From positions 1-21,748 of IMG/VR virus record IMGVR_UViG_3300031787_000951: DNA of 21,748 nucleotides. One strand, given 5' to 3'. Below, in pieces: positions 1,275-21,748 of this stretch. Source of the stretch: a virus. Both the position numbers and the translations under genes were made by a program. Under the pieces are notes generated by a model, which saw nothing but the letters and a program-made list of their open reading frames with translations, was not told the origin of the DNA and made no database searches. The first letter of the stretch is position 1. Each line of letters starts with the position of its first letter.

Positions 1275-1775
1275 TCCCGGAGCCCGGCACCCCGGCCCGC
1301 GGAGCGTCCCTGCGTTCAACTCGGGCCACAGTGACTCTGAGTGTATCGCAGCCAGCAAGCCCCATGCTGCATGAGGCAAATGATCCTCCGATCGGTCGCC
1401 GGACAGGTAGAGGTACACATGGCGGAGGGCGTGGTTCAGGAGGTCCGCCACCGGCATGCCCTTTTCCCAGTTGAAATCCCCGTACTTCGCCGCCCCCTCC
1501 GCGCACGTGCGAGCCACGGCCTCCAGGCCGATCGGCGAGATCAAGTCGTACCGCGTGGCCTCCGCGTCGCTCGACCGCACGGCCCCCGTAGCGAACCGCA
1601 CTGTCGACCCTTCCTGCTCCTTCACGTTGTCTGCCTCCTGGTAGTGTCTGACCATGCCGATGAGATGAATCACGTAGCCCGCAAGCGTGCCGCTTGTGCC
1701 GTGGTAGGCACCGCTGAATCGCCGCGCCCTACGCTCGGCGTCCCGCAGCTCGTCGTCCGTCAGCCAGTGGCTCAC
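1263..1775 (-). CDS. DUF5664-like protein, candidate dATP/dGTP diphosphohydrolase (170 aa)
   Basis: The start is GTG at 1775, overlapping the phosphoesterase stop as GTGA. The second half matches the DUF5664 pattern (now described in Pfam as a dATP/dGTP diphosphohydrolase domain): RYDLISP (75-81), AEGAAKYGDFNWEKG (92-106), HALRH (115-119) and HLPHAAWG (132-139). In MazG-related helical hydrolases such conserved Glu, His and Asp residues bind Mg and the nucleotide triphosphate. The first 70 residues are polar and helical and match nothing I know. If active, it would hydrolyse purine dNTPs to the monophosphate plus pyrophosphate in the cytoplasm. No PurZ-like partner is in the window. Family call is moderate; substrate is inferred. 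Confidence 0.6.
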   Translation of the reverse strand: MSHWLTDDELRDAERRARRFSGAYHGTSGTLAGYVIHLIGMVRHYQEADNVKEQEGSTVRFATGAVRSSDAEATRYDLISPIGLEAVARTCAEGAAKYGDFNWEKGMPVADLLNHALRHVYLYLSGDRSEDHLPHAAWGLLAAIHSESLWPELNAGTLRGPGCRAPGEVK

Positions 1776-2788
1776 GACGTCCGCACCTTTCCGTTCGCGA
1801 TTCGGAAATTGGAAACGTCAAACTGGCCGTCGGCCTGGACCTTGACCGACGCGAAGCCGTGATTGAACTTGTTGATGCGGGCGTACTCGGGCCGGAGATC
1901 GCACAGGCAGCCCGTGCTCCAGCAAAACACCTCCCGGCCGAACATATCCGGCTCGCAATGGGCGCTCGTGCGGTGCCCGTGGCCTTCGAGCACGGTGTGC
2001 TGGAGCCGGAGGAACGCCCCGCGGGCCTGGTTGACCGGGGCCGCGAACCCCTTGCCCTTCTCGTGCCCGTGGAGGATCGGCAGCTGGCCCGCCATGATCG
2101 GTCGCTGGTCGTCAACGTAGGCGATGCCGTGGTTCGCCATGTCGAGCCACTCGTCGAGGCCCGTCCGCTTGTCGTCGCTGATCTCCGGGGCGTGCTGCCA
2201 CAGCCAGTGGTTCCATCGCTCCTCGTGGTTGCCAGCCTTGAAGACGATCGGGATCGACGGGAACTGCCCGCGGATCCACGCGAGCATGTCGCGGGCGGCA
2301 TCCACCTCCGCGGAGAACTTCCGCTTCTTGGGGTTCTTTGTGTACCGGCTGATCGCGTAGAAGTCGCACGTGTCGCCGTTCAGCACCAGGGCGTCGATCT
2401 TGTCGCCCCGCAGCTGGTCGACGGCGGCCCGGAGGGCTACTTCGTCGTGGTAGGGCACGTGGATGTCGCTGAGCACGCCGACCTGGCCGGTGACGCCGAG
2501 ATAGTAAGGTGCCCACGCGTCGGCCTTCGACGGCGGCATTGGCGGGGCGGCCCCGGCGGATCGCTTGGCCCGCGGCGTTACTTTGTGCATGGTGCGGCGG
2601 TGGAACTCTCCGTTGATCCCGAGCTGCCGCCTGATTCGCGAGTAGGCTTGCTGGAGCGTGATGGCCCCGTTGGCCTCCTCCTGGAGGCGACGGCCGAGCG
2701 TTTTCGCAGGGGCGTCGGGGTGGGCCGCCACGAGACGGCGGGCCATTTCGGTGATCTCGTCGCCGCCTGTTTGTCCTTTGACTGGCAT
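1772..2788 (-). CDS. Calcineurin-like metallophosphoesterase with N-terminal helical (HTH-like) region
   Basis: ATG at 2788 has a strong GAGGAGG ribosome site a few bases upstream. The 338-aa product has the full metallophosphoesterase signature: DIH (108-110), NGDxxD (137-142), GNHE (186-189), HGH (240-242) and GHGH (269-272). These bind two metal ions and act on phosphodiesters or phosphomonoesters. Residues 10-60 (EMARRLVAAHP to QAYSRIRRQLG) look like a helix-turn-helix or winged-helix segment, hinting at nucleic acid binding. It is separated by 25 nt from the preceding tail-region gene and overlaps the next gene by 4 nt. Substrate is unknown; DNA or RNA end processing, or a role in host takeover, are possible. 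Enzyme class is secure. Confidence 0.88.
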   Translation of the reverse strand: MPVKGQTGGDEITEMARRLVAAHPDAPAKTLGRRLQEEANGAITLQQAYSRIRRQLGINGEFHRRTMHKVTPRAKRSAGAAPPMPPSKADAWAPYYLGVTGQVGVLSDIHVPYHDEVALRAAVDQLRGDKIDALVLNGDTCDFYAISRYTKNPKKRKFSAEVDAARDMLAWIRGQFPSIPIVFKAGNHEERWNHWLWQHAPEISDDKRTGLDEWLDMANHGIAYVDDQRPIMAGQLPILHGHEKGKGFAAPVNQARGAFLRLQHTVLEGHGHRTSAHCEPDMFGREVFCWSTGCLCDLRPEYARINKFNHGFASVKVQADGQFDVSNFRIANGKVRTS

Positions 2789-2813: not shown

Positions 2814-3140
2814 TCAGTCGCCGACGTAGAACTTCTTCGCGGCGATCAAAGCGTTCCGTGCCTTGATCTGCACGCGGTTCCCGACTTCGTTCAGCCACCG
2901 CTTCCGCCCCTCGCACCCGCAGCATCCCGGCTTGCCTTCGGTGCGGGTCCACCGCTCGACCCGCTCCTTCGTGATGCCCAGGGCGGTCAGCCCTTTCTCG
3001 ACGAGGTCGCCGATGGGGATGGGTCGCCAGACCTTCTCGGGCACGGGTCGGCACTCACGGTAGGTCGGGAGCCGCTTGGCGTAGTAGCCGCACGTCGGGC
3101 ATGTCTGTGCCGGATTGTTGAAGTCGCAAAGCGTCTGCAC
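2814..3140 (-). CDS. Cys-rich zinc-ribbon-like phage protein (108 aa)
   Basis: The chosen start is GTG at 3140, overlapping the upstream TAG stop by one base (TAGTG). The same frame is open further upstream inside the big tail gene, but the other genes in this operon start at the previous stop. The ribosome site is weak, so coupling is likely. The product has CPTCG near residues 13-17 and CCGCEGRKRWLNEVG around 72-86, preceded by GDLVEKGLTALGITKERV. A short LGI...CGC..RK..LN motif of this kind recurs in phage tail-region proteins without a known function, as far as I recall. The Cys pairs suggest metal binding. Probably tail-tip associated. Confidence 0.55.
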   Translation of the reverse strand: MQTLCDFNNPAQTCPTCGYYAKRLPTYRECRPVPEKVWRPIPIGDLVEKGLTALGITKERVERWTRTEGKPGCCGCEGRKRWLNEVGNRVQIKARNALIAAKKFYVGD

Positions 3141-5587
3141 TACTGCACCGTCATCTTGAACGTGTTCAAGTGGTTTGGCCTTGGCGGCCCCGTGTAAGGG
3201 CCACCAAGCGGATCGCCGGCCTGCCATGTCGGGTCGTCGTTTTCTTCGCAACAGTTAGGGCAACCGGCCGCCGAAAAATTTTCGGAGCCGTTGGGGTCGA
3301 AGAATGAGAACTCCATCCCTTGCGGCGGCGCACATAGCGGAACGTCCATGCAATATGCGGCGCAGAGCGCGGTAGCCCTTTGCTCATCTGTGATCGACTG
3401 GTCGTAGTTCGGGCAGTTGCGGAGGTCGTCGTCCTCTGGGTCGGACCACGTCAGCGGGTGGCTGGAGATACTGCACCTGGCAACTACTTCGCATTTCTTA
3501 ACGCAGTTGTCGCAGTTGCCTACGTCAGGGTTGCCACACCTGCCTGGCGCTATCGAGAGGCCAACATTGAACCTAGTCCCGCACCAGCCATCGAGGCAGA
3601 TCGAGAAACCCCAGTTCGCTCCACCAAATCCGTACCACCCGAAGGCTGGCAGCACATACGTTCCAGATCGGCTCGTGTCTCCGTACCGATCCTGCTCGAT
3701 GTAGACCTCCACCTCCTGCGGAATGTCGTCCGCACCTTGGCAGCACTGCGTGCATGAGGCCCACGGGATTTCCGCTGTATGGCTTCCGTGCTTCCCCTTG
3801 AAGTGCTCGTCATAGCTGCCGCCAGGCTCGACCGACGCGGTAACGCCATGAACATTCGATGCTGTGAAAGAAAACTCGTCGCAGTTTGCAATAGGCTCCG
3901 CCGCCGTCATTGTCACGCCACATGCGGGGCCAATGTCGTCGCTGCTTCCCGTGCCAGGAGGCCGACCCTCCCTAGCGATGTACACGACAGGAGGAGATGT
4001 CGGTCCGTTGTATAAGACAGCAATACGCATGTAGCCATTTGAGTATCTGACATAAGGAGGCCCGCTGTATGACTGCGATGTCCACCCTCCGCATATCGCG
4101 TGCGAGTAAACGCACGGCCCAAGAAACGAAAGCCTGTTGCGCTTGAGCACGATCGGCATCCCGTTGAGCTGCCAGCCGCAGCAGGCGTTCGCGACCCACT
4201 TCCACGCCAGATAGCCTGTTCCGCCATTGGCAACAGCAAGGGCTGTAATCTTCCCAAAGTTGGGACTCTCGGGATCATCTTCAACGGTCGCGGTGAACGT
4301 CGCCCCTGTGCCGCCGCTTGGTGCCGTTTGAGACGCCACCGTTACGGTCACGGTCGCCACATACGGCGTCTGGCTGGCATCCTCGCGGTAATACTGTCCG
4401 GGCGCTGTAACATCGACGGCAGTGATCGCACCGCCGTCGTAGTAGGAGCCGCCGTATGAAATCTCGACGGAGTCAATCACTCCGGTGCTCTTGTAGAACA
4501 GGCCGCCGTCGTAAATCTCGACGGCCGTGATGGCACCGTTTTCGTCCACCTTGGACACGAATGCGTAGAACCAGGAATACTGCGATTGCTGCCCGTTCGT
4601 GGATGCGGTCAGCATGTCATACACGGAGTATCCAGAGCCGCCGTCGGTGATCGTAACGCCCGACACCGTCCAGGCTGGTCGCGCCGGGTAGTCGAGCGTT
4701 TCGGTGATCGTGGTCGAGAAGTCAGCCCCGGAGCCCGTGCCCGTGATGCCGACGCCGACGATCGGCTCCTCGCGTCCTGTCCTCACGACAGCCTGAGCCG
4801 ATTCGACGACCACCAGGTCGCTGCCACCGGAGAATGTCACCGCGGCCCCGTCCATGTAGCCGGTTCCGCCATTTGTGACCGACACGCCACTCACGCCCCA
4901 CGTTGCCGGCGTGCCGTAGTTGGCGGACGTTGAGGCTGACAGCGCGGCACCGCTGCCGCCGGCAACGCTGGCCGTTAGCGTCGGCTGCGTCCTTGCCGTG
5001 CGAACAACCGCCACGGCCGCCTGGGCCTCCGTGTCGCCCTCGGCCGCCGTGATCGTCAGCGGCTCGCCATCGACGTAACCAATGCCGCCCTTGAAGGCGA
5101 CCGACTTAAGCGCCCAAAACGGCACGCCGCAGGCGTCATCCTCGCTTTCGATCGTCGGCGTGAACGTCGCTCCAGTGCCGCTGCCGCCCGACACCGTCAG
5201 CGTCGGCTCGACCCGGCCCAGCTTCGCGTAGCCGCTGCCGCCATTCGTGAGCGAGACGGCAGAGATCGGACCTTTGTCGGTGTCAGGATCGCCGCCAGGG
5301 GCGGTCACGCGGGCAGACGCACCGCCGCCGAAGCATGCAGAGAAGCCGAGAGAGATCAAGTCTGGACCCGGCGTCTGGTCGGTGAAGCCGTTGAACGTCA
5401 CCGTCACCGTATCTGGCAGCTCGCCTTCGGTGCAGGTAGTGCATGGCGGAGTCTGGCCGCAGCATGCCGAGCAACTTCCCCCCAGCATGAAACCGACCGG
5501 GTACATGCCTGCCGCAAACGCAAACATCCCCCACAGGACGAACGACGGCGGGTCCACCGATTGGATGGCGGCGAGCAACTCGAGCAC
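3140..5587 (-). CDS. Large Cys-rich tail protein with GGSGY-type repeats (815 aa)
   Basis: GTG at 5587 lies one base after the upstream stop and has GGAG about 7 nt upstream. The N-terminus holds a hydrophobic stretch (about 16-37), possibly a signal or membrane anchor. Residues about 105-460 carry a degenerate beta repeat ending in GGxGY: GGSGY 116, GGIGY 167, GGTGY 240, GGSGY 316, GGLFY 361, GGSYY 379 and GGTGY 455, alternating with GGSGTGATFTPT-like strands. Such repeats are typical of phage tail fibre, spike or baseplate proteins. The C-terminal half is very rich in cysteine, with three CxxCC motifs (39-43, 612-616, 776-780) plus CTTC (49-52) and CDNC (692-695). It is probably the host-contacting tail tip or fibre. 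Role is inferred; exact function is unknown. Confidence 0.6.
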   Translation of the reverse strand: MLELLAAIQSVDPPSFVLWGMFAFAAGMYPVGFMLGGSCSACCGQTPPCTTCTEGELPDTVTVTFNGFTDQTPGPDLISLGFSACFGGGASARVTAPGGDPDTDKGPISAVSLTNGGSGYAKLGRVEPTLTVSGGSGTGATFTPTIESEDDACGVPFWALKSVAFKGGIGYVDGEPLTITAAEGDTEAQAAVAVVRTARTQPTLTASVAGGSGAALSASTSANYGTPATWGVSGVSVTNGGTGYMDGAAVTFSGGSDLVVVESAQAVVRTGREEPIVGVGITGTGSGADFSTTITETLDYPARPAWTVSGVTITDGGSGYSVYDMLTASTNGQQSQYSWFYAFVSKVDENGAITAVEIYDGGLFYKSTGVIDSVEISYGGSYYDGGAITAVDVTAPGQYYREDASQTPYVATVTVTVASQTAPSGGTGATFTATVEDDPESPNFGKITALAVANGGTGYLAWKWVANACCGWQLNGMPIVLKRNRLSFLGPCVYSHAICGGWTSQSYSGPPYVRYSNGYMRIAVLYNGPTSPPVVYIAREGRPPGTGSSDDIGPACGVTMTAAEPIANCDEFSFTASNVHGVTASVEPGGSYDEHFKGKHGSHTAEIPWASCTQCCQGADDIPQEVEVYIEQDRYGDTSRSGTYVLPAFGWYGFGGANWGFSICLDGWCGTRFNVGLSIAPGRCGNPDVGNCDNCVKKCEVVARCSISSHPLTWSDPEDDDLRNCPNYDQSITDEQRATALCAAYCMDVPLCAPPQGMEFSFFDPNGSENFSAAGCPNCCEENDDPTWQAGDPLGGPYTGPPRPNHLNTFKMTVQ

Positions 5588-12260: not shown

Positions 12261-13487
12261 TCAGGTCGCGGCCTTGGCCAGACGACCGACGAACTCGGGG
12301 CCGTGATTGCTCACGCCGAGCCGGGTGCTCGCGACGTAGAGCAGCTGGCGGCTCCGCACGAGCAGCTCGCGGGCCACGGTGATCTCCAGGCCGGTGTCCT
12401 TGATGCCCACTGCCGTGGCCATCGAGAAGTCACCGAAGAGGGCCAGCGTGTTGGCCGGCAGGCCCTTCACGATGTAGACCGGAGCGCCGTAGATCGTCGG
12501 GACCACGCGGCCGCCGCCGACCACTTGGGTGGTCTGCTGAGCCGACCAGATCTTCATGAGATCCACGTAGCCGGCCTTGGAGCACACCCACGCGCCCGTG
12601 CCCATGATCGACTCGTCAACCTTGCCGACGACGTCGGCGAGGTTGTTCGCGGTCGTCGAGGCGTTGGCCGCCACGGTGACGGTGTTGCCAGCCGCCACCG
12701 CACCGGCGAGGCCGCCGATGGTCGGGTTGCTGGCGTTGCCGCCGAGCCAGACCGTGTCGATCCAGCGGGCGAGCCCGTAGGAGCACCGATCGACGATCAG
12801 GCCGGCCACGTCGATCGGCGAATCCTCGACGAGCGAACGCGACACGGGGATCGAGGCACCGCCCTCGGAGAGGGTCAGGTCGGCACCGCTGGACGAAATG
12901 TCCTGGTCGGTGAACCCGACGCCTTCGCCGGCGAAGCCGAACGTCACGTCGCCGCTCTTCGGCAGAGTGATCTTCTGGCCGGCCGGCCGGAAGATGCTGG
13001 CCAGCTGCACGCCGACCGACTGGTAGGAGAGCCGGTTCACGATGGCGTTGTACAGCTCGCCCATGACGAAGTCGGCACCGTAGCCGGACACCGTCTCGCC
13101 CATCGCCCGCTTTTCGCCGGCGGCGATCGAGCAGAGCAGGCGGCCAGCGGCCTCCGCGATCTTCGCGGAGCGGAAGGCCTTCACGCCGGCCCGGATGTCC
13201 GGAGCCGCGAAGCGGTCTTCCTTCTCGCCCTCGAACTGCCGCTCGACGTCTTCCCGGGACTTGTCGGCGCTGCGGACGCTCTTCATGGATGCGATGGCAG
13301 CGTCGATCTCGTCCTCTCGCCTGGCTTCCGCGGCGATCTTCGTGGCGCGCTCGGTGGCGGCCTTCAGCCGGCCCTCGATGCTCTCGCGGTCGGCGTCGTC
13401 CTTGGGCTCGAGCTGACGGAGAGCGTTGATCTCGTTCTCCACCGCGACGCTCTCATCTTGAAGAAGGCGGGTCTTCGGGCTGGGCAT
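12261..13487 (-). CDS. Major capsid protein, HK97 fold, with N-terminal scaffold domain (408 aa)
   Basis: ATG at 13487 with GAGGA upstream. Residues 1 to about 95 are charged and helical (NEINALRQLEPKDDADRES, KAATERATKIAAEARREDE), matching the HK97 delta/scaffold region that the prohead protease removes. The rest shows the Phage_capsid (PF05065) features: a loop and strand region with PAGQKITLPKSGDVTFGFAGEG (in part), the DLTLSEGGASIPVSRSLVEDSP stretch, and the C-terminal GVKDTGLEITVARELLVRSRQLLYVASTRLGVSN-like end (read here as AVGIKDTGLEITVARELL). It forms the icosahedral shell. It is preceded by a 115-nt gap carrying copy B of the 22-bp element. Confident. Confidence 0.92.
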   Translation of the reverse strand: MPSPKTRLLQDESVAVENEINALRQLEPKDDADRESIEGRLKAATERATKIAAEARREDEIDAAIASMKSVRSADKSREDVERQFEGEKEDRFAAPDIRAGVKAFRSAKIAEAAGRLLCSIAAGEKRAMGETVSGYGADFVMGELYNAIVNRLSYQSVGVQLASIFRPAGQKITLPKSGDVTFGFAGEGVGFTDQDISSSGADLTLSEGGASIPVSRSLVEDSPIDVAGLIVDRCSYGLARWIDTVWLGGNASNPTIGGLAGAVAAGNTVTVAANASTTANNLADVVGKVDESIMGTGAWVCSKAGYVDLMKIWSAQQTTQVVGGGRVVPTIYGAPVYIVKGLPANTLALFGDFSMATAVGIKDTGLEITVARELLVRSRQLLYVASTRLGVSNHGPEFVGRLAKAAT

Positions 13488-13884: not shown

Positions 13885-14186
13885 TTGCGATGCTCCAACC
13901 ACCGTTGAACGAGAATCTCCACAATCTTCCCGATTGCCCACATGAGCAGCATCGACAGCAGCGGAGAGCCGCAGCGGTCGCGGTAGACCAGCCGAACGCG
14001 CTGCTCCCAACGTTCCCGCATGGCGTGGCTGTCGTGGCCGGCGAACAGGGATTCGCTACCCTTCGGTGATTCGACCAGTGTCGTCGCCACAATCGCGTCG
14101 CACCGCTCCCGGCCAAGCATGGCGCGGCGGACAGGGTAGGCCGCAAGCGACTGCCAGACGTGCTCGTCGATATCGGTGGAGGTCAT
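13881..14186 (-). CDS. Small protein with C-terminal hydrophobic segment (101 aa)
   Basis: ATG at 14186 overlaps the protease stop as ATGA and is preceded by AGGTG; a GTG 12 nt earlier is badly placed. The first two thirds are soluble and charged (MTSTDIDEHVWQSLAAYPVRR, ... AMRERWEQRVRLVYRDRCG), and the end holds a hydrophobic helix (LLSMLLMWAIGKIVEILVQRWL, about 75-97). It is a tail-anchored-like membrane protein. It is coupled with the secreted protease upstream and the 93-aa membrane protein downstream. No family recognised. Confidence 0.5.
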   Translation of the reverse strand: MTSTDIDEHVWQSLAAYPVRRAMLGRERCDAIVATTLVESPKGSESLFAGHDSHAMRERWEQRVRLVYRDRCGSPLLSMLLMWAIGKIVEILVQRWLEHRK

Positions 14187-15001
14187 CGTTTCGCACACCT
14201 TCCGTCCGGGCAGTCAGCCGGCCACTTCGCACGGGAGAGCAGGGACCGGATTTCGGTGGCGTGGCTGCCGATGGTGATCTCGCCATTGCTGCCAAACAGC
14301 ACAGCCGCCAGCTCGCCGTCGGTGTTGAACACTGGCCCGCCGGAATCGCCCTTCCTCGCGCCGGCCCGCAGCTCGACCATGTGCATCGGGTGCCGTCCGG
14401 TCGGGCCGAGGAGCTGGGTCATGGGGCCTGCCTGTTCGCGGTAGGCGAAGGGCGGCGGGCCGTAGCCGGCGATCGTGAGCCGGTCGCCCGGGGCAGGGGG
14501 GCGGGCCGCAAGCCGCACCGGGGCGGCGTCGGGGGCGGCCGTCACAAGGGCCGCCAGGTCGAAGGCGTCGTCGCTGGCCACCACGCGAGCCGGTGCTGAG
14601 CTGCCGTCCGGCCAGCGGATCGTGATCGAATCGCGGTTGCCGCGGACCACGTGCCAGGCGGTCAGCACAAGCGCGTGGCGGTCGCGGACATCGACGAGCA
14701 CGCCGGAGCCGCAGTCGGTGGAAGGGCCTGATCCGCAGACGATGCGAGGGACGGCCGGCCGGGGGCCGCCGGCAACGGCAGCGGGCGGCGGAGCCGGGGG
14801 CGCAGGCGGAGCGGCGATCAAGCCAGCCCCTTCGCAGAGCGGGCACACGAACCGCACCGGCCCTGGTCCGACAACGCGATCGCCGTGGCAGTTTTCGCAC
14901 GGTGCGGCCGCGGCGACCGTGGCGGCCCAGACGGCGATGAGTGCAGTGGCTCGCCGCAGCGCACGAACGACGGATCGGGTGTCGGCTTTGATCGCGATCA
15001 T
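14183..15001 (-). CDS. Secreted trypsin-like serine protease with N-terminal zinc-ribbon motif (272 aa)
   Basis: ATG at 15001 overlaps the upstream stop as ATGA, so I use this start and not the longer frame. A signal-type segment covers about 12-34 (positively charged start, then AVWAATVAAAA). Next comes CENC (35-38) and CPLC (53-56), a DnaJ-like zinc ribbon, then an Ala/Pro linker (63-85). The catalytic domain shows the complete triad: His117 in LTAWHVV, Asp148 in DDAFDLAAL, Ser220 in GDSGGP. It should be exported and cleave proteins outside the cytoplasm or in the virion. Two proteases in a row in a phage head block are unusual. Family is secure; target is unknown. Confidence 0.9.
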   Translation of the reverse strand: MIAIKADTRSVVRALRRATALIAVWAATVAAAAPCENCHGDRVVGPGPVRFVCPLCEGAGLIAAPPAPPAPPPAAVAGGPRPAVPRIVCGSGPSTDCGSGVLVDVRDRHALVLTAWHVVRGNRDSITIRWPDGSSAPARVVASDDAFDLAALVTAAPDAAPVRLAARPPAPGDRLTIAGYGPPPFAYREQAGPMTQLLGPTGRHPMHMVELRAGARKGDSGGPVFNTDGELAAVLFGSNGEITIGSHATEIRSLLSRAKWPADCPDGRCAKR

Positions 15002-15864
15002 GCTGGCTTGCTCCAGTCGTCGGGGAGTGTCATGGACGCGATCGCGAACGACCCCTTCCATGCGGATCGGGCCGTCCGCTCCGAGTCGTAGCGGACGATG
15101 TCGTATGAGTCCGGGTAGGCCATGAGCCGCTGGTCGGGGATCCACCGGGACCACGGCACCGCGTGGCCGTTGCGGCCCACGCTCACGACCAGGCCGTGTA
15201 GCAAGAGGCACACGGCCTGCTCATAGCTCGCCGGGAAAATCACCTCAAGCGGGCGGAACTGCCGGGCAGTCTCCTCCCAGCCCTCCGGGAACCGCGATAC
15301 CGACACCCACGGGCCGCCGGCCTGGTTCAAGCCGCCCTTGCCGGACGTGCCCACGATCGCATGCTTGAACTGGTAGTCGCGCGGCTGCACCGTCTCGGGG
15401 AGCATGCCGCGGCGGACGGCGATTTCGAGCACGGCCCGGACGTTGGCCCCGCCCCACTTCCGCGGGTTGGCCTCCGCGTAGACGGAGAGCGGCGAGAGCC
15501 AGACGGATCCGAAGTCCTTCGACTCCTGGTAGCGGAAGTCCTTTTTCGGCCCGCCGTAGTTCACGCCGCGGGCCCGGTTGCGGGCCGCCTCCGCGTTCGC
15601 TCGGAGACTGTGGCACGTGCATTCGTGGGTCGGATTCTGGTTCGTGAAGCGGTCGATGAAGTTGATGCCCCACGCTCCGGCCGCGTCGTTCTCTCGGGCC
15701 TTCGCGACCCAGTCGCGCGGCTCGATCCAGAGCGATTCTGGGAACTCGCGCGAGGCGTCGCCGCAGGCGTCGCGGAGAGCGTCGGTCGTGTCCTCCGCGG
15801 CCAGCTCGGCCGGGTAGCCGTCGTGCTCGTGCGGAAAGACGTCGATCAGGGAGGGGTCAATCAC
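14998..15864 (-). CDS. Papain-like (C1-type) cysteine peptidase candidate (288 aa)
   Basis: GTG at 15864 overlaps the upstream stop as GTGA. The pattern fits a papain-like fold: NQNPTHECTCHSL (75-87) with Cys84 in the place of the nucleophile after a Gln76, then LSPLSVYAEA (124-133) and GGANVRAVLEIAVRRGMLPE (138-157), typical of C1 domain middles, and NGHAVPW (232-238) with the His (234). The last Asn-containing NSWG element is not evident, so catalytic competence is unproven. No signal peptide is seen. It lies next to the trypsin-like protease and between a lipoprotein and it. Could instead be a structural protein with this fold. Confidence 0.6.
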   Translation of the reverse strand: MIDPSLIDVFPHEHDGYPAELAAEDTTDALRDACGDASREFPESLWIEPRDWVAKARENDAAGAWGINFIDRFTNQNPTHECTCHSLRANAEAARNRARGVNYGGPKKDFRYQESKDFGSVWLSPLSVYAEANPRKWGGANVRAVLEIAVRRGMLPETVQPRDYQFKHAIVGTSGKGGLNQAGGPWVSVSRFPEGWEETARQFRPLEVIFPASYEQAVCLLLHGLVVSVGRNGHAVPWSRWIPDQRLMAYPDSYDIVRYDSERTARSAWKGSFAIASMTLPDDWSKPA

Positions 15865-16727: not shown

Positions 16728-17099
16728 TCAGGCCCTCACGAGCGGCAGCAGCTGCTCCACGGCACCGCTCGCCATGGCGATCACGAGCGACCGAACGGCG
16801 GGTCGGACGATGAGCCAGAGCGGCCAGACTGCCACAGGAATTGCCCGGTCGGCCACGGCGTCGAACAGCATGCCGACGGCCTCCAGAGCGAACGTCTTCT
16901 TCTCCGCTCCTGTCAGGAACTTGGCCGCGTCGATGGCAGGGATCACAAGCCGCAGCAGAGCCAGCATGAGGTCGCCGAACTCGGCCCACGTCAGGCCGTC
17001 GGCGGCCGCCGACTTGGCCGTGGAAATGAACGCGCGAATCTTGTCCATCAAGTTCGCGTCGAGGTTGGTGGCCACGGCCACCGGCGCAGACGAGATCAT
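16728..17099 (-). CDS. Small protein with C-terminal hydrophobic segments, holin-like architecture (123 aa)
   Basis: ATG at 17099 overlaps the prohead protease stop as ATGA. The first half is helical (DKIRAFISTAKSAAADGLTW; EFGDLMLALLRLVIPAIDAAKF, in part). The second half has a hydrophobic pair (DAVADRAIPVAVWPLWLIVRPAVRSLVIAM, in part, about 80-109) and a terminal SGAVEQLLPLV. It may associate with the membrane. No known family; it opens the membrane/peptidase cassette. Confidence 0.5.
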   Translation of the reverse strand: MISSAPVAVATNLDANLMDKIRAFISTAKSAAADGLTWAEFGDLMLALLRLVIPAIDAAKFLTGAEKKTFALEAVGMLFDAVADRAIPVAVWPLWLIVRPAVRSLVIAMASGAVEQLLPLVRA

Positions 17100-18109
17100 T
17101 TCGCCACCCCCGTCGAGGCAATTACCGTTCTCATGCGGGCGGCGGCCGCCGCTGCGGCAGCCCTCGCCCCGGAAAGCGTCGAGACCTTCACGCTACGCGG
17201 CGCACCCGCGGCCGACTTGCCGGCCTCCGGGATGCCCTCCGGGTAGTCGTCGATCCACACGTCGATGGTGAGGCCGGCGGCTGCTGCGGCCGACCGCTTT
17301 TGCTGGTCCCGCCCACAGAGCAGCACGCCGGCCAGCTCGTCGTGGAGATCGCCGAACGCATCCCGAAGGGCGCTCCGGTTCTCCTCTGTGTCCTCGCGTC
17401 GCGTGATGCACACGACGCGGTTGCCGCGGGCCTGCGCGTCGGTGACGAAAGACCGCCACAGGCCGGGGGCCGCGGTGAAGGTGCCGTCGAAGTCGAGAGA
17501 GATCGTGAGGCCCCGAGACTCGGCCCGGTGGGCCATCACGCTCCGGGCCTGCTTCCAGAGCGGCAGTGAACGGATGCCGGCCGTGCTCTGCGGATAGGCC
17601 GGGTAGGTGACGGCCGAGATGTCGTAGAGGCCGCTGGCCCGAAACACCGTCCGGATCACGTTGCCCTTTTCGTCCTCCGTCCACGTCTCCCCGTCGGACG
17701 CGGCGGTGAACGCGAAGCTCGCGCCGGTGATCGTGCGATCCTCCACGAGCATCGCGAGATCGCGGCCGTGGGTCGTCGGAATCGGGCGGTGAACGTATTC
17801 GAGGCCCTTTAATGCCTTGCGGATTTCGAGCCGGCCGTTCGTGGTGCGGCCCGTAATCAGGTGCGACAGGTGGTCAGTCAGGAACGGCACGTCGATCTTG
17901 CCGCGCGGATCGTTCGCCTTGCGGTCCACGAGGCCGTCGAATGCGGTCGGGGCGAACTTCTCGCGGAAGCCGCCGAGATCGACGGAGAAAGAATCCCACG
18001 GCGGCGAGATCCCGGTGATCACGGGCGGCTCGCCGTCACGCGTCTGGACGGTGATCGCGTCCGGGTAGTCGGCCGTCAGCAGGTACCGGCGCTCGATTGC
18101 AGTCGTCAT
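17096..18109 (-). CDS. Prohead protease fused to a HAD-like phosphatase domain (337 aa)
   Basis: ATG at 18109 overlaps the portal stop as ATGA. Residues 1 to about 180 match the HK97 U35-type prohead protease: PFLTDH with His80, a Leu-rich RKALKGLEYVHRPIP stretch, TITGASFAF with Ser131, and DISAVTYPAYPQ (163-173). This part cleaves the capsid scaffold. Residues 200-337 match a HAD phosphatase: LDFDGT (Asp206 and Asp208), CITRR (Thr236), a motif III Lys around 271, and WIDDYPE (Asp287/288). A possible internal start at Met192 (ribosome site GGAG 4 nt before) could yield the HAD part alone. I know no standard prohead protease with such a C-terminus. Confidence 0.85.
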   Translation of the reverse strand: MTTAIERRYLLTADYPDAITVQTRDGEPPVITGISPPWDSFSVDLGGFREKFAPTAFDGLVDRKANDPRGKIDVPFLTDHLSHLITGRTTNGRLEIRKALKGLEYVHRPIPTTHGRDLAMLVEDRTITGASFAFTAASDGETWTEDEKGNVIRTVFRASGLYDISAVTYPAYPQSTAGIRSLPLWKQARSVMAHRAESRGLTISLDFDGTFTAAPGLWRSFVTDAQARGNRVVCITRREDTEENRSALRDAFGDLHDELAGVLLCGRDQQKRSAAAAAGLTIDVWIDDYPEGIPEAGKSAAGAPRSVKVSTLSGARAAAAAAAARMRTVIASTGVAK

Positions 18110-19707
18110 GTGGTCCCCCCTGTGGAATCCGTGGAGAGCGGTGTGGCCGACAGCTCCGCCGTGAGCTTGCCAACGGTGAACTCGGTCGGCTCGTCGTTCA
18201 GGTAGACGCGGATGAGCGCGGCCGGCTGCTCTGGCGTGGCCTCGATCGCGAACGGCGAGCCCTCGACGCCGAGCGTCCCGGACGTCATCAAGTGCTCGAT
18301 CACGCCGTCAGCATCGGACCAGTACACGCGCTGGCCGAGCGTGAAGCCGCCGGCCGCGGGCACGCTCTCGCCCTGGACGTTGTCCGCGCCGCCCGGCACC
18401 GGATCGGCGACGGCCCCGGCGGGGGCCTTCTGCGCCTGATTCGCCGCCATCTGGAGCGTTGAGAAGCCGAGCTGCAGGAACGTCTTGTCGGCCTCCGGCT
18501 CTTCGAGCAGCGGGAAGTCCTCGAGGTCGCGGATCTCGTTCGGCGTGATGGCCGACATGGCGAACAAGGCCCGATACAGGTTCGCCCTGGCCACCGAATC
18601 GCCACGGAGCAACGCCCGGTTGTCGAGCTGGAAGAACGTGTTCTCGCCATAGGTGTCGTTCAGCCAGAGGTTGACCGCACCCTCGAACCGCTTCTGCCAC
18701 GGCAGCAGGCACCACACCTGCGCGGCAAGGTTGTCGGCCTCCGGGCTGCCGTAGCGCTGGGCCTTCGCGTCGCCCACGAGCGACGCCGGCACGCCCCAAT
18801 GGCTGCACACTTCGGGGAGGATGGATTCGCGGAGCTGCTGGAACTGCGACTGCTCCATCGTGCTCGACGGCATCGGGATCAGCTTGTCGCCCTCCCGCAT
18901 CACAGCCGGGGCACCGCGGTTTTCGCCGCCGTAGAGGTCGCGGAACTCGCTCCTGTAGCGGGCAGCCGCGGGGTCATCGAGCCGCTTCGCTGTCTCGATC
19001 ACGAAGTCGGGGCGGGCCCCGTTCTTCCAGTGGGCCATTGCGGCCGTGTCCAGTTCGCGGGCCAGACTGATTGCCGTCGACAGCGTGTCGGTGGCGGGGG
19101 TGCCGGTGATTCCGTTGTCCCCGAGCCAGCGGAAGTGGAGAACTTCACTCTGCTCCAGCCGGCTCCAGCGCCCCTTCTCGTCGAACCATTCGTACCCCAG
19201 CGTGTAGTCATCGAGCTGCGTGGTGCGCATGCGGCGCGGGTGCAGCGGGATAAGGTGGGTCATCGAGCCGCGGATTCCGGACACGACCCGCGCGAAACCG
19301 CCCCCGTGGAGGGCAGTCCAGTAGCCCTGGAGCGTCCAGAAATCGAACGGGCTTTGCCACGGGTTCGGCCGGACGCGCAGGGCCGCGACGCATTGCCGGT
19401 TGGGGCTCGCCTCGGGATCCCCGAACCCCTGGACAGCGTCGAGCGTCTTCCCTCCGAGCCGCACTTTCAGCCGCGGAGACATGCACCCGACGGCCTGCGC
19501 GATGAAGCGGCAGACCGCGAACACGCTCGACACCCGGATTGCCACGTCCGGATGGACGCGACGGCCGGCGTAGGTGCCCCACGCCAGCGGATCGAGCAGC
19601 GTGCTCGTGGCAATCGCAGAGCGCACGCCGCCGCGCGACGGCCTCCGCGAGGCCGGGCGTTCGGAACTCTTCGCCCGCCGGGGGGCCGCTTTGCTGGCGC
19701 GTGGCAT
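18106..19707 (-). CDS. Portal protein, HK97-like, with C-terminal SH3-like extension (about 533 aa)
   Basis: Two ATGs are close: 19716, with GGAAGG directly against it (spacing 0), and 19707, with proper spacing; I use 19707. The core is a Phage_portal (PF04860) protein: VRPNPWQSPFDFWTLQGYWTALH, in part, IPLHPRRM, SEVLHFRWLG, PSSTMEQSQFQQLRESILPEVCSHWGVPASLVGD (in part), and the NLWLNDTYG and AITPNEIRDLEDFP end. The last roughly 75 residues (FTLGQRVYWSD ... PAALIRVYLNDEPTEFTVGKL, in part) form an added SH3/tudor-like domain seen elsewhere in phage proteins. It forms the dodecameric DNA gate. Confident on portal; extension identity moderate. Confidence 0.9.
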   Translation of the reverse strand: MPRASKAAPRRAKSSERPASRRPSRGGVRSAIATSTLLDPLAWGTYAGRRVHPDVAIRVSSVFAVCRFIAQAVGCMSPRLKVRLGGKTLDAVQGFGDPEASPNRQCVAALRVRPNPWQSPFDFWTLQGYWTALHGGGFARVVSGIRGSMTHLIPLHPRRMRTTQLDDYTLGYEWFDEKGRWSRLEQSEVLHFRWLGDNGITGTPATDTLSTAISLARELDTAAMAHWKNGARPDFVIETAKRLDDPAAARYRSEFRDLYGGENRGAPAVMREGDKLIPMPSSTMEQSQFQQLRESILPEVCSHWGVPASLVGDAKAQRYGSPEADNLAAQVWCLLPWQKRFEGAVNLWLNDTYGENTFFQLDNRALLRGDSVARANLYRALFAMSAITPNEIRDLEDFPLLEEPEADKTFLQLGFSTLQMAANQAQKAPAGAVADPVPGGADNVQGESVPAAGGFTLGQRVYWSDADGVIEHLMTSGTLGVEGSPFAIEATPEQPAALIRVYLNDEPTEFTVGKLTAELSATPLSTDSTGGTT

Positions 19708-19727
19708 GCGCGCCATCCTTCCAAACA

Positions 19728-19752: not shown

Positions 19753-21396
19753 TCACCACAGGCGCTGCAGGAAAGGGCCGGAGTCTGGCCGCTCCGACAG
19801 CTCCGCGTCTTTCTCCATGGCGGCGGCGAACGCGTTGACTGCCGCCACGATCCCGTCGATCTTCTCCGGGCTCTTGTCCTTGTCGGGCTTGATCATCCCG
19901 GTCGAGTCCTCGACCCACACGAGATTGTTTGCGTTGAACAGCAGGATCGGGGATTCGTAGCCGAACTGCCCCTCGACCACACAGCCCTCCAGCATCTTCG
20001 CCGGTGCGTTCATGACGGTCGTGCTCGGCCGCACCGCCTTCAGGTCGATCGACTCCTCCTCGAGCATCGACGCGATCGGGCCGATCTGCCACGGGTCCGC
20101 ACCGACGAGGGCGATTCGGTTTTGCCGGTCGAAGTCCGCGATGTCCTTGGCGACGACCTTGTGATTGAGCCGAGCCCCCGGCGTGACAGTCAGCCAGCCC
20201 TCGCGGGCCCACGTCGAATACGGAATGTTGTCCTTCGTCTCGCGTTCGCGGACGGTTTCCTCAGGCACCCAGTATTTCATGACGGCGTAATATGAGCCGT
20301 CGGCGAGCTTGAAGAGAAAACACGCGGCCGTCATGTCGAGATTGCTGGCAACGTCGATCCCGCAGACACACACAAGACCCGTCAGGTCAGGCCGCTCCTT
20401 TCGGCAGTTGGCGAAATGCTCGCCTGGGAAGGCCCGGTTGTCGGGAGCCGTCCACACGTTCAAGGAATACCGCAGCCACTTTGAGAACTTCCGGGGGTGG
20501 GTGAGCGCGTCTTCGTAGTCGGAGCGGAACTCGTCTTCGGTGAAGGCCGTGCCCATGGCCGGGTTGGCCTTCGCCCACGTGGCCGGGTCGTGCGGGTCGT
20601 CGGCCTTCGGGTCGGCCCCGAAGATCACCCCGAGCAGGCCCGTGTTTACCGACGGGTCTTTGATCGCCAACTCCGTCGCCTCCCACCACTCCCAGCCGAT
20701 GCCGTTCCTGTTGTCGCCGGCCGTGGAGATCGAGCCGATGATTGCATTGGGGATGCCGCGGGTCGCGTACATGATGGTGTCGACGAGGTCCGGCTTTTTG
20801 AAGCTGTGGATTTCGTCGAGCAGCACGAGCCCATTGATGCCTTCCGACACTTTCGCGTCGGCAGACAGGCAGCGGATTTCCTTGCCGTTCCGTTTGTTGC
20901 GGATGAGGTACTTGTGATCGACAACGTCGAACACGGTTTCCAGGATCGGCGACGCCTGAATTGAATCGCGTACCATCCGCCACATGGTGCGGGCCTGGTC
21001 CTTGACGTTCGCCGCAAGGAACACGTCCATGCCGGCGACGACGTTGGCGAACTGGACGATCTGCGAACAGCTGGTCGTCTTCCGATTCTTCTTCGGAACG
21101 AAGACGGAGAACCGGCGGAACCGGAGCCGGCCATTCGGTCGACGCCAGCCGAACAGAGGGTAGAGCACGCGATCCCGGAACCACGGGATCGGAGACACCC
21201 GCACGATCTCGCCACCCTCCGCCCGGTGGCGGCAGCAATCCTCGATGAACTGCCGCGGCTTGTCGGCCTCTTCTGGTTTCCAGACAAACCCGGGGACGTA
21301 CTCCGGCCGCGTCGTCGGATCGACGAACAGGGACTCTGGCGGCGGGCTGCACGGCTCAGGAATACTTCGCGAGCGGGTCTTCCTTCTCCTCATCAT
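19753..21396 (-). CDS. terL: Terminase large subunit (547 aa)
   Basis: ATG at 21396 (second ATG at 21393) with GAGGA upstream; it overlaps the small subunit gene by about 40 nt. The ATPase domain has a Walker A-like PKKNRKTT (101-108) and Walker B LVLLDE (190-195) followed by IHSF. The nuclease domain has GIDVASNLDMTA with Asp348 and Asp354, GADPW with Asp434, and KIDGIVAAVNA with Asp513. Terminase_1 (PF03354) family: DNA translocating motor and cutting. The overlap with the small subunit suggests coupled translation. Confident. Confidence 0.93.
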   Translation of the reverse strand: MMRRRKTRSRSIPEPCSPPPESLFVDPTTRPEYVPGFVWKPEEADKPRQFIEDCCRHRAEGGEIVRVSPIPWFRDRVLYPLFGWRRPNGRLRFRRFSVFVPKKNRKTTSCSQIVQFANVVAGMDVFLAANVKDQARTMWRMVRDSIQASPILETVFDVVDHKYLIRNKRNGKEIRCLSADAKVSEGINGLVLLDEIHSFKKPDLVDTIMYATRGIPNAIIGSISTAGDNRNGIGWEWWEATELAIKDPSVNTGLLGVIFGADPKADDPHDPATWAKANPAMGTAFTEDEFRSDYEDALTHPRKFSKWLRYSLNVWTAPDNRAFPGEHFANCRKERPDLTGLVCVCGIDVASNLDMTAACFLFKLADGSYYAVMKYWVPEETVRERETKDNIPYSTWAREGWLTVTPGARLNHKVVAKDIADFDRQNRIALVGADPWQIGPIASMLEEESIDLKAVRPSTTVMNAPAKMLEGCVVEGQFGYESPILLFNANNLVWVEDSTGMIKPDKDKSPEKIDGIVAAVNAFAAAMEKDAELSERPDSGPFLQRLW

Positions 21397-21748
21397 CGTC
21401 CTCGATTGGCAGGCGAGCCACGGCCGCGGCCGTAAGGCCGAAGTCGCGAGCCAGCGCGACGAACTCCGTCCGGGCCGCCCTGAGCATGGTGTGGGCCGGA
21501 TGCTTCACGATGTCGCCCTTCGTGTTGACGATCGTGTCCCCGTCCTTCGCGATGCGTAGGTCGAGCCGCTCGATCTCCGCGTGGAGGCGACACATGAGGG
21601 CGAACGTCTCGGCCTGGTCGGCAGTGAGCCGGCCGTCCTCGATGAGCGTCGGGGCCAGCCGTTTCCAGAGGGCGGCGGCCGGCTTGTTCTTCGCGAGGCC
21701 GTGCGGCATGCGAACCGGATCGTCTGACCCGCGGCGCGGGGCGGTCAA
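21356..21748 (-). CDS. terS: Terminase small subunit, P27-like; start at or beyond the window edge
   Basis: The frame reaches the window end; a TTG sits at 21748, so the true start may be outside, or the ATG of MPHGLAKN at about residue 14. The product has the P27 family layout: WKRLAPTLIEDGRLTADQAETFALMCRLHAEIERL (in part) as helices, KDGDTIVNTKGDIVKHPAH as the beta part, and ARDFGLTAAAVARL near the C-terminus, with an acidic end (DDDEEKEDPLAKYS). It recognises the packaging site and regulates the large subunit. Its order before terL is standard. Confidence 0.82.
   Translation of the reverse strand: MTAPRRGSDDPVRMPHGLAKNKPAAALWKRLAPTLIEDGRLTADQAETFALMCRLHAEIERLDLRIAKDGDTIVNTKGDIVKHPAHTMLRAARTEFVALARDFGLTAAAVARLPIEDDDEEKEDPLAKYS

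Follow-up and report, generated by a model that had tools for sequence, protein, structure and literature searches.

A HAD phosphatase-like domain fused to the prohead protease of a lake virus of planctomycetes, and its relatives on phage portal proteins

Enzymes fused to phage head proteins are already known as a kind, as are the S78 protease and the HAD fold. Nudix domains are described as fused to MuF, to the portal or to a capsid-processing serine peptidase and are interpreted as packaged and injected (PMC9503650), and 2H, PBECR and InPase domains as fused to portal or MuF (PMC5512222). The C-terminal portal barrel of P22-like phages lies inside the head (PMC4992974, PMC5850374), where it aids the delivery of DNA and pilot proteins; such inward barrels are documented in P22-like phages and, according to the same source, occur less often elsewhere (PMC5850374). 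HK97 shells are produced by expression of the portal, protease and capsid genes (PMC10275583). The protein analysed here resembles the head-fused enzymes (Nudix, 2H, InPase, ART, PBECR) in that an enzyme domain sits on a portal, MuF or head peptidase, but a HAD phosphatase is not among the enzymes named in the available sections of PMC9503650 and PMC5512222, and in the present case one HAD clade alternates between the portal, a gene of its own and the protease. Among titles and the opening parts of abstracts, in a coverage that mostly leaves out subscription journals, we found neither a report of a HAD or phosphatase domain fused to a prohead protease or portal nor one of a single clade alternating between these two proteins.

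With HK97-type prohead proteases (PF04586, phrog_80) the protein shares a domain above the Pfam cutoff, the His and Ser residues and a gene located right after the portal, and it differs from them by its C-terminal HAD domain and an Ala-rich tail. The phrog_4919/4256 proteins, such as phi32_47 of phiEco32 and the product of gene 208 of Salmonella phage PVPSE1, have this minimal HAD too and share its catalytic residues; they differ in being encoded by a separate gene of about 130 codons, located away from the head block in the records inspected, and in the absence of Arg237.

The window, i.e. the whole stretch of 21,748 nucleotides that was analysed, derives from a lake virus of planctomycete bacteria. 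The fusion gene (ORF P0001) is located at 17096..18109 on the minus strand and is translated from an ATG at 18109 down to 17096 into 337 amino acids; the plus strand of the same interval holds stop codons. It overlaps by 4 nt with the stop of the portal gene (18106..19716, minus strand; PF04860, E 8.6e-63), whose product carries no HAD in the window, HAD families being absent from its PHROG scan matches. The genes for the small (21356..21748, minus strand; PF05119) and large (19753..21396, minus strand; PF20441, PF03354) terminase subunits, the portal and the fusion follow each other in one direction, with the gene of the HK97-fold major capsid protein (12261..13487, minus strand; PF05065, E 2.9e-18) further downstream. 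The Pfam match of the capsid protein covers residues 139-392, and the N-terminal stretch before residue 139 could be the usual scaffold domain.

An earlier note on this DNA, made from the sequence alone and giving no strand, had recognised the motifs of a prohead protease (His80, Ser131) in the first half of the protein, and the family searches agree with this reading. Residues 22-178 (17576..18046, minus strand) match Pfam Peptidase_S78 (PF04586) with an E-value of 4.6e-24 and 85.8 bits (cutoff 21) and phrog_80, “head maturation protease”, with an E-value of 5.9e-25. The NCBIfam equivalog TIGR01543 (HK97 prohead protease) scored 49.8 bits, which is under its cutoff of 59, and we therefore place the protease in the wider S78 family, outside that equivalog. 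Ser131 is kept in 69/69 distinct fusion proteins and His80 in 67, the remaining two (L030 and L045) being gapped at this position; we take these two residues to be the catalytic ones of the S78 protease. In L045 the gap is due to the contig end, and the fusion protein of L030 (L030:2334-3233) has an in-frame deletion of about 40 residues including the catalytic His. In a Planctomycetales S78 protease without HAD (L134:7104-8591), the protease domain is preceded in frame by about 200 aa of other sequence.

The protease domain is followed by a linker (residues 179-199; 17513..17575, minus strand), which varies in length and sequence, and by the HAD phosphatase-like domain (residues ~200-295; 17225..17512, minus strand). 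Matches to two phage families without an assigned function, phrog_4919 (E 3.3e-17) and phrog_4256 (E 3.4e-15), span residues 202-309 and 199-312, respectively. None of the curated HAD families of Pfam and NCBIfam is above its cutoff for this domain, so that automatic annotation would name the gene a prohead protease only; the sole HAD name among the curated-family matches is TIGR01672 (AphA), with an E-value of 0.16 for L184, far under the cutoff. The HAD motifs are D206-x-D208-x-T210, T236, K271 and D287-D288, as the earlier note had described them. In an alignment of 75 diverse homologues, comprising 21 protease-fused domains and 54 others, D206, D208, T210, R238, K271, D287, D288 and P290 are invariant and position 236 is always T or S (75/75), from which we conclude that the motifs are not due to chance. 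The wider set of 123 representatives includes one E at D287 and one N at D288, and L526 reads WIDN in place of WIDD.

The earlier note had also named structure prediction of the C-terminal part as a test. An AlphaFold model based on the 75-row alignment reached a mean pLDDT of 85.8, with 10-residue means of 88-97 over residues 203-292, and residues ~200-295 are predicted with confidence to form a small Rossmann-like HAD core without a cap. A full-length model agrees with it in the HAD part; its protease part, with a mean pLDDT of 46.8, was poor and was set aside. In the structure comparison by VIA, the best matches were the T4 Pnkp phosphatase structures 1rc8_A (Z 9.7) and 5uj0_B (Z 9.6), with an rmsd of 3.0-3.2 over 100 residues, followed by bacterial Pnkp1 (Z 9.0), MDP-1 (Z 8.9) and AphA (Z 7.8). 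The 3'-phosphatases of T4 Pnkp and Pnkp1 are thus the nearest solved folds (about 100 residues, 15-18% identity), yet the window HAD is without a kinase domain and a common fold is not a common function. Moreover, the top matches are mostly HAD phosphatases with Z from 9.7 to about 7, the best is barely above the next, and the gap between Pnkp-type folds (Z 9.3-9.7) and MDP-1 (8.9) is narrow; the substrate cannot be read from the modelled fold. Membership in a curated Pnkp family was considered and dropped, as no Pfam polynucleotide-kinase phosphatase match appeared at E-values of up to 1. Foldseek gave no match with E < 1e-3 in the PDB for the HAD model, and a BFVD fold search returned 12 viral models at E < 1e-3, which are phage proteins of 106-155 aa, almost none of them named. 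Sequence profiles of the PDB gave weak matches only, the best being a designed protein (E 2.6e-4) aligned outside the motif I-IV residues and the next a class B acid phosphatase (E 0.0068).

The C-terminus (residues 312-337; 17099..17176, minus strand) is Ala-rich and was predicted as a helix in both AlphaFold models. Of 100 protease-HAD ORFs whose tail exceeds 25 aa, 85 have the corresponding motif; among tails of that length, it was found in 0/14 portal-HAD and 0/19 stand-alone proteins.

The fusion is by no means restricted to the window. The IMG/VR scans kept the best 80 loci each, and all class sizes given here are lower bounds and not prevalences; as loci overlap in contigs, distinct HAD sequences were counted as well. 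The first IMG/VR scan yielded at least 48 loci, of which 47 were inspected, 39 having both ends and 28 being distinct, and after addition of a second viral scan and a genome scan the fusion was present in 125 of the 137 listed loci. All HAD-related scans together gave at least 440 loci with 432 HAD ORFs, 266 of them distinct. If HAD pieces shorter than 82 aa are excluded, as was done for the count of distinct domains and for the tree, at least 76 distinct domains (at least 183 overlapping loci) are protease-fused, with a gap of 6-31 residues between the two profile matches, and at least 31 (at least 39 loci) are fused to HK97-type portals. The remaining distinct domains comprise at least two on lambda-type portals, at least three others and at least 121 stand-alone ones, L435 having been reclassified manually as a lambda-type portal (formerly “other”) on the strength of a Pfam match. 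The search for the same fusion elsewhere, which the earlier note had suggested, was thus positive in many IMG/VR contigs and in a Planctomycetaceae metagenome-assembled genome (MAG), and a sequencing error joining two genes is ruled out by the at least 76 distinct fused HAD domains across IMG/VR. Given this recurrence and the confident HAD model, neither of the doubts raised in that note, a non-HAD fold or a sequence error, holds.

The view that the fusion is unusual is supported by the records of cultured phages. Among 50,697 such records, 556 match the fusion protein and none of them covers 80% of it, nor did any place cover 80% of the two portal-HAD proteins that were tried against the same records, from which we conclude that the protease and portal fusions appear confined to uncultured phages. 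Stand-alone forms of the HAD abound in cultured phages, as an unnamed gene of its own (phrog_4919/4256), and separate query searches matched 297, 468 and 490 records. Of 392 Planctomycetota genomes, six match the HAD profile, with a long frame (365 aa) in G001 only and frames of 132-146 aa in the others. Among 50 IMG/VR records of mostly stand-alone HAD, Peptidase_S78_2 was found in one and Peptidase_S78 in one, the latter with the protease distant from the HAD; this scarcity of proteases indicates that the protease link is a trait of the head clade described below and not of the whole family. The BFVD search also returned matches named XkdF, for example A0A6J5N6Z6 (301 aa; rmsd of 2.6 across 93 columns), and others named “Prohead protease”, which hinted at a HAD on a second type of protease. 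A HAD on XkdF-type proteases was unconfirmed in sequence, no HAD being present at the 46 and 80 XkdF loci listed; the single HAD match in the 46-locus set belongs to L219, a fusion of the window type.

Besides the protease, portal proteins carry the domain. One of them is a 699-aa protein (L426:2186-4282; PF04860, E 1.8e-109) with the HAD at residues 604-698, directly downstream of which lies a separate S78 protease gene. Two lambda-family portals (PF05136; L361:2198-4285 and L435:326-2179) have a HAD at or near the C-terminus. The HAD is encoded by its own gene in L526, where it follows the portal and protease genes after 10 nt, and in L568, where it overlaps the end of a lambda-type portal gene. 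In L518/L519:4182-5303, a 374-aa protein has a Pfam match to the toxin-like Ntox46 domain (E 1.1e-9) ahead of the HAD, the portal-HAD of L556 runs on into a match to “minor head protein and DNA pilot”, and that of L515 into a weak, below-cutoff ADP-ribosyltransferase match. In L518, adjacent ORFs resemble each other in their N-terminal parts, as would variants of a head-associated protein arrayed in tandem. An 875-aa ORF (L209:1670-4294) ends in a HAD at the C-terminus and matches glycosyltransferase-9 and FkbM methyltransferase weakly.

We constructed a maximum-likelihood tree from 123 representatives of the 263 candidate HAD domains; with this sampling and 100 alignment columns, the deep forks are unsure. 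One clade (support 100/98, 45 rows) contains all 22 HK97-portal-fused and all 19 protease-fused representatives together with four others, namely the Ntox46-HAD protein of L518, an ORF truncated where the contig ends (L521), L526 and L568; the lambda-portal pair L361/L435 lies outside. Arg237, which adjoins motif II, is present in 41/41 portal- or protease-fused rows as well as in L526 and L568, and in none (0/75) of the stand-alone rows that fall outside the head clade. In loci that show both genes, none of the protease-HAD loci has a HAD on the portal as well (0/153, among 183 loci listed), and none of the portal-HAD loci has one on the protease (0/33, among 39 loci listed). In the loci with both genes in view, portal and protease are thus mutually exclusive as HAD carriers.

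Both halves of the fusion evolve under constraint. Over 1676 pairs, the median dN/dS was 0.39 for the protease and 0.30 for the HAD, from which we conclude that the HAD, and likewise the protease, is under purifying selection. In 26 of 1936 pairs the HAD was at least 97% identical with a protease identity of at most 72%, and in 8 of 1936 pairs the protease was at least 97% identical with a HAD identity of at most 80%. When mosaic pairs were laid out by residue, the mismatches stopped or thinned sharply near residue 180 in five of seven, which places the point of exchange between the two domains at the start of the linker (residues 179-199). The DNA of the seven HAD-conserved mosaic pairs is 93-98% identical in the block ahead of the portal's end: the protease plus adjoining sequence was swapped while the HAD was retained. 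The fusion is old enough to have diversified.

What such a domain does on a prohead protease can be narrowed down by its carriers. We propose with moderate confidence that the protease-HAD protein brings a HAD cargo into the head lumen, which would be freed by the protease and probably injected to dephosphorylate a nucleic-acid end or a nucleotide. The S78 prohead protease bears a capless HAD phosphatase, predicted to be active, on a short linker and with an Ala-rich tail, and the HAD would ride into the head lumen on a protein built into the procapsid, namely the protease here and, in relatives, the portal with its C-terminus. Once the head has matured, the protease would probably cut itself and thereby release the phosphatase, which may stay in the head, would most likely be injected with the DNA and could then remove a phosphate from a nucleic-acid end or a nucleotide early in infection. 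The same HAD on the portal of related viruses suggests an enzyme meant for loading inside the head, and since portal and protease share little beyond being built into the procapsid with access to its inside, the lumen is the most economical destination to assume for the HAD; by analogy, the C-termini of the HAD-bearing portals would point inward. Between an enzyme directed into the procapsid and a by-product of the cytoplasm, the portal-fused relatives thus favour the former. Somewhat more tentatively, we suggest that the HAD-head clade may represent an undescribed head-lumen phosphatase system of uncultured tailed phages, which would load an active nucleic-acid or nucleotide phosphatase by way of exactly one of two lumen-facing carriers (or an adjacent gene), with delivery to the host and the protease as a putative release device. 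HK97-type proteases and their fragments generally leave the maturing head, and a protease-borne HAD might therefore leave as well instead of being injected.

The main rival, which we regard as unlikely, is that the HAD acts in the procapsid during assembly or packaging, for example by trimming 3'-phosphates or ends of the incoming DNA or by dephosphorylating a head protein, and is not injected. Such a role would fit carriers that are both present before packaging, a HAD within the terminase-portal-protease block and nearest folds that are Pnkp 3'-phosphatases acting on nucleic-acid ends, but most phages, to our knowledge, package their DNA without such a phosphatase, and the homologues of large phages are located outside the head module. 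In addition, the Ntox46-HAD protein and the pilot-like extension point toward injected effectors, and together with the ART-like extension and the literature on head-fused enzymes they favour cargo, release and injection. We consider it rather less probable that the HAD is a cytoplasmic nucleotidase or end-repair enzyme working before assembly, whose incidental fusion merely ties its expression to the late genes. Most HAD relatives outside the head clade are indeed stand-alone and common in cultured phages, outside the head module in phiEco32 and beside a MazG-like gene in another cultured phage, which indicates that the ancestral role may have been cytoplasmic; however, chance fusion hardly accounts for a HAD mounted repeatedly, and in a mutually exclusive manner, on two kinds of head protein, lambda-type portals included. 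A structural role, in which HAD fold and Ala-rich tail would serve for scaffolding or targeting in the procapsid and catalysis is irrelevant, seems improbable: the tail is typical of protease-fused forms (85/100 versus 0/14 and 0/19) and could dock the protease, but catalytic residues invariant in 75/75 homologues are unexpected in a scaffold, and the capsid protein may have a scaffold domain of its own before residue 139. Least probable among these readings is internal initiation at Met192, which would yield a free HAD beside the fusion. The site that the earlier note had pointed out (GGAG, 4 nt, ATG; 17534..17544, minus strand) is present and is the sole internal ATG or GTG with such a site in the window gene, but an ATG with a like site occurs in this region in just 15 of 69 distinct fusion proteins, the aligned codon being ATG in 15, GTG in 32, GTC in 12, CTG in 5, GCC in 4 and GAA in 1 (V, L, A or E in 54). 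Separate translation of the HAD was thus dismissed as a general feature.

If cargo loading and injection prove true, the common unnamed family phrog_4919/4256 would gain its first testable setting, inside the head, and the published list of head-fused enzymes would be extended by a phosphatase. The exclusive mounting on portal or protease would amount to a natural experiment, with the shared lumen as a clue to function, and a maturation protease serving as both enzyme vehicle and release device would be a simple route for capsid loading.

The Planctomycetaceae MAG carries the fusion at 96% identity on a contig of 40,167 bp. A 55-bp exact direct repeat is found there at 218-272 (L277) and at ~34,446-34,500 (L278:6947-7001); an integrase-like ORF adjoins the left copy, and a tRNA-Arg gene overlaps the right one with its 3' half. 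The ORFs past the right copy are bacterial-like, judged by reading and not by family scan (transporter-acyltransferase, phytoene-desaturase-like). The repeats are likely attL and attR, and the layout of the contig is, by these sequence features, that of a putative prophage of ~34 kb in a tRNA gene.

The window contains an integrase-like ORF at its left end, just below the Pfam cutoff. Two further genes on the minus strand lie between those of the prohead protease and the capsid protein, encoding a 288-aa protein without a family match (14998-15864), which on reading is somewhat papain-like, and a trypsin-like peptidase (14183-15211; PF13365). A calcineurin-like metallophosphoesterase (1772-2788, minus strand; PF00149, phrog_221) represents a second phosphatase-like gene of the phage. 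An unassigned 815-aa ORF with repeated GGxGY-type segments (3140-5587, minus strand) is resembled by a 1146-aa ORF of the MAG contig (L277:4321-7761).
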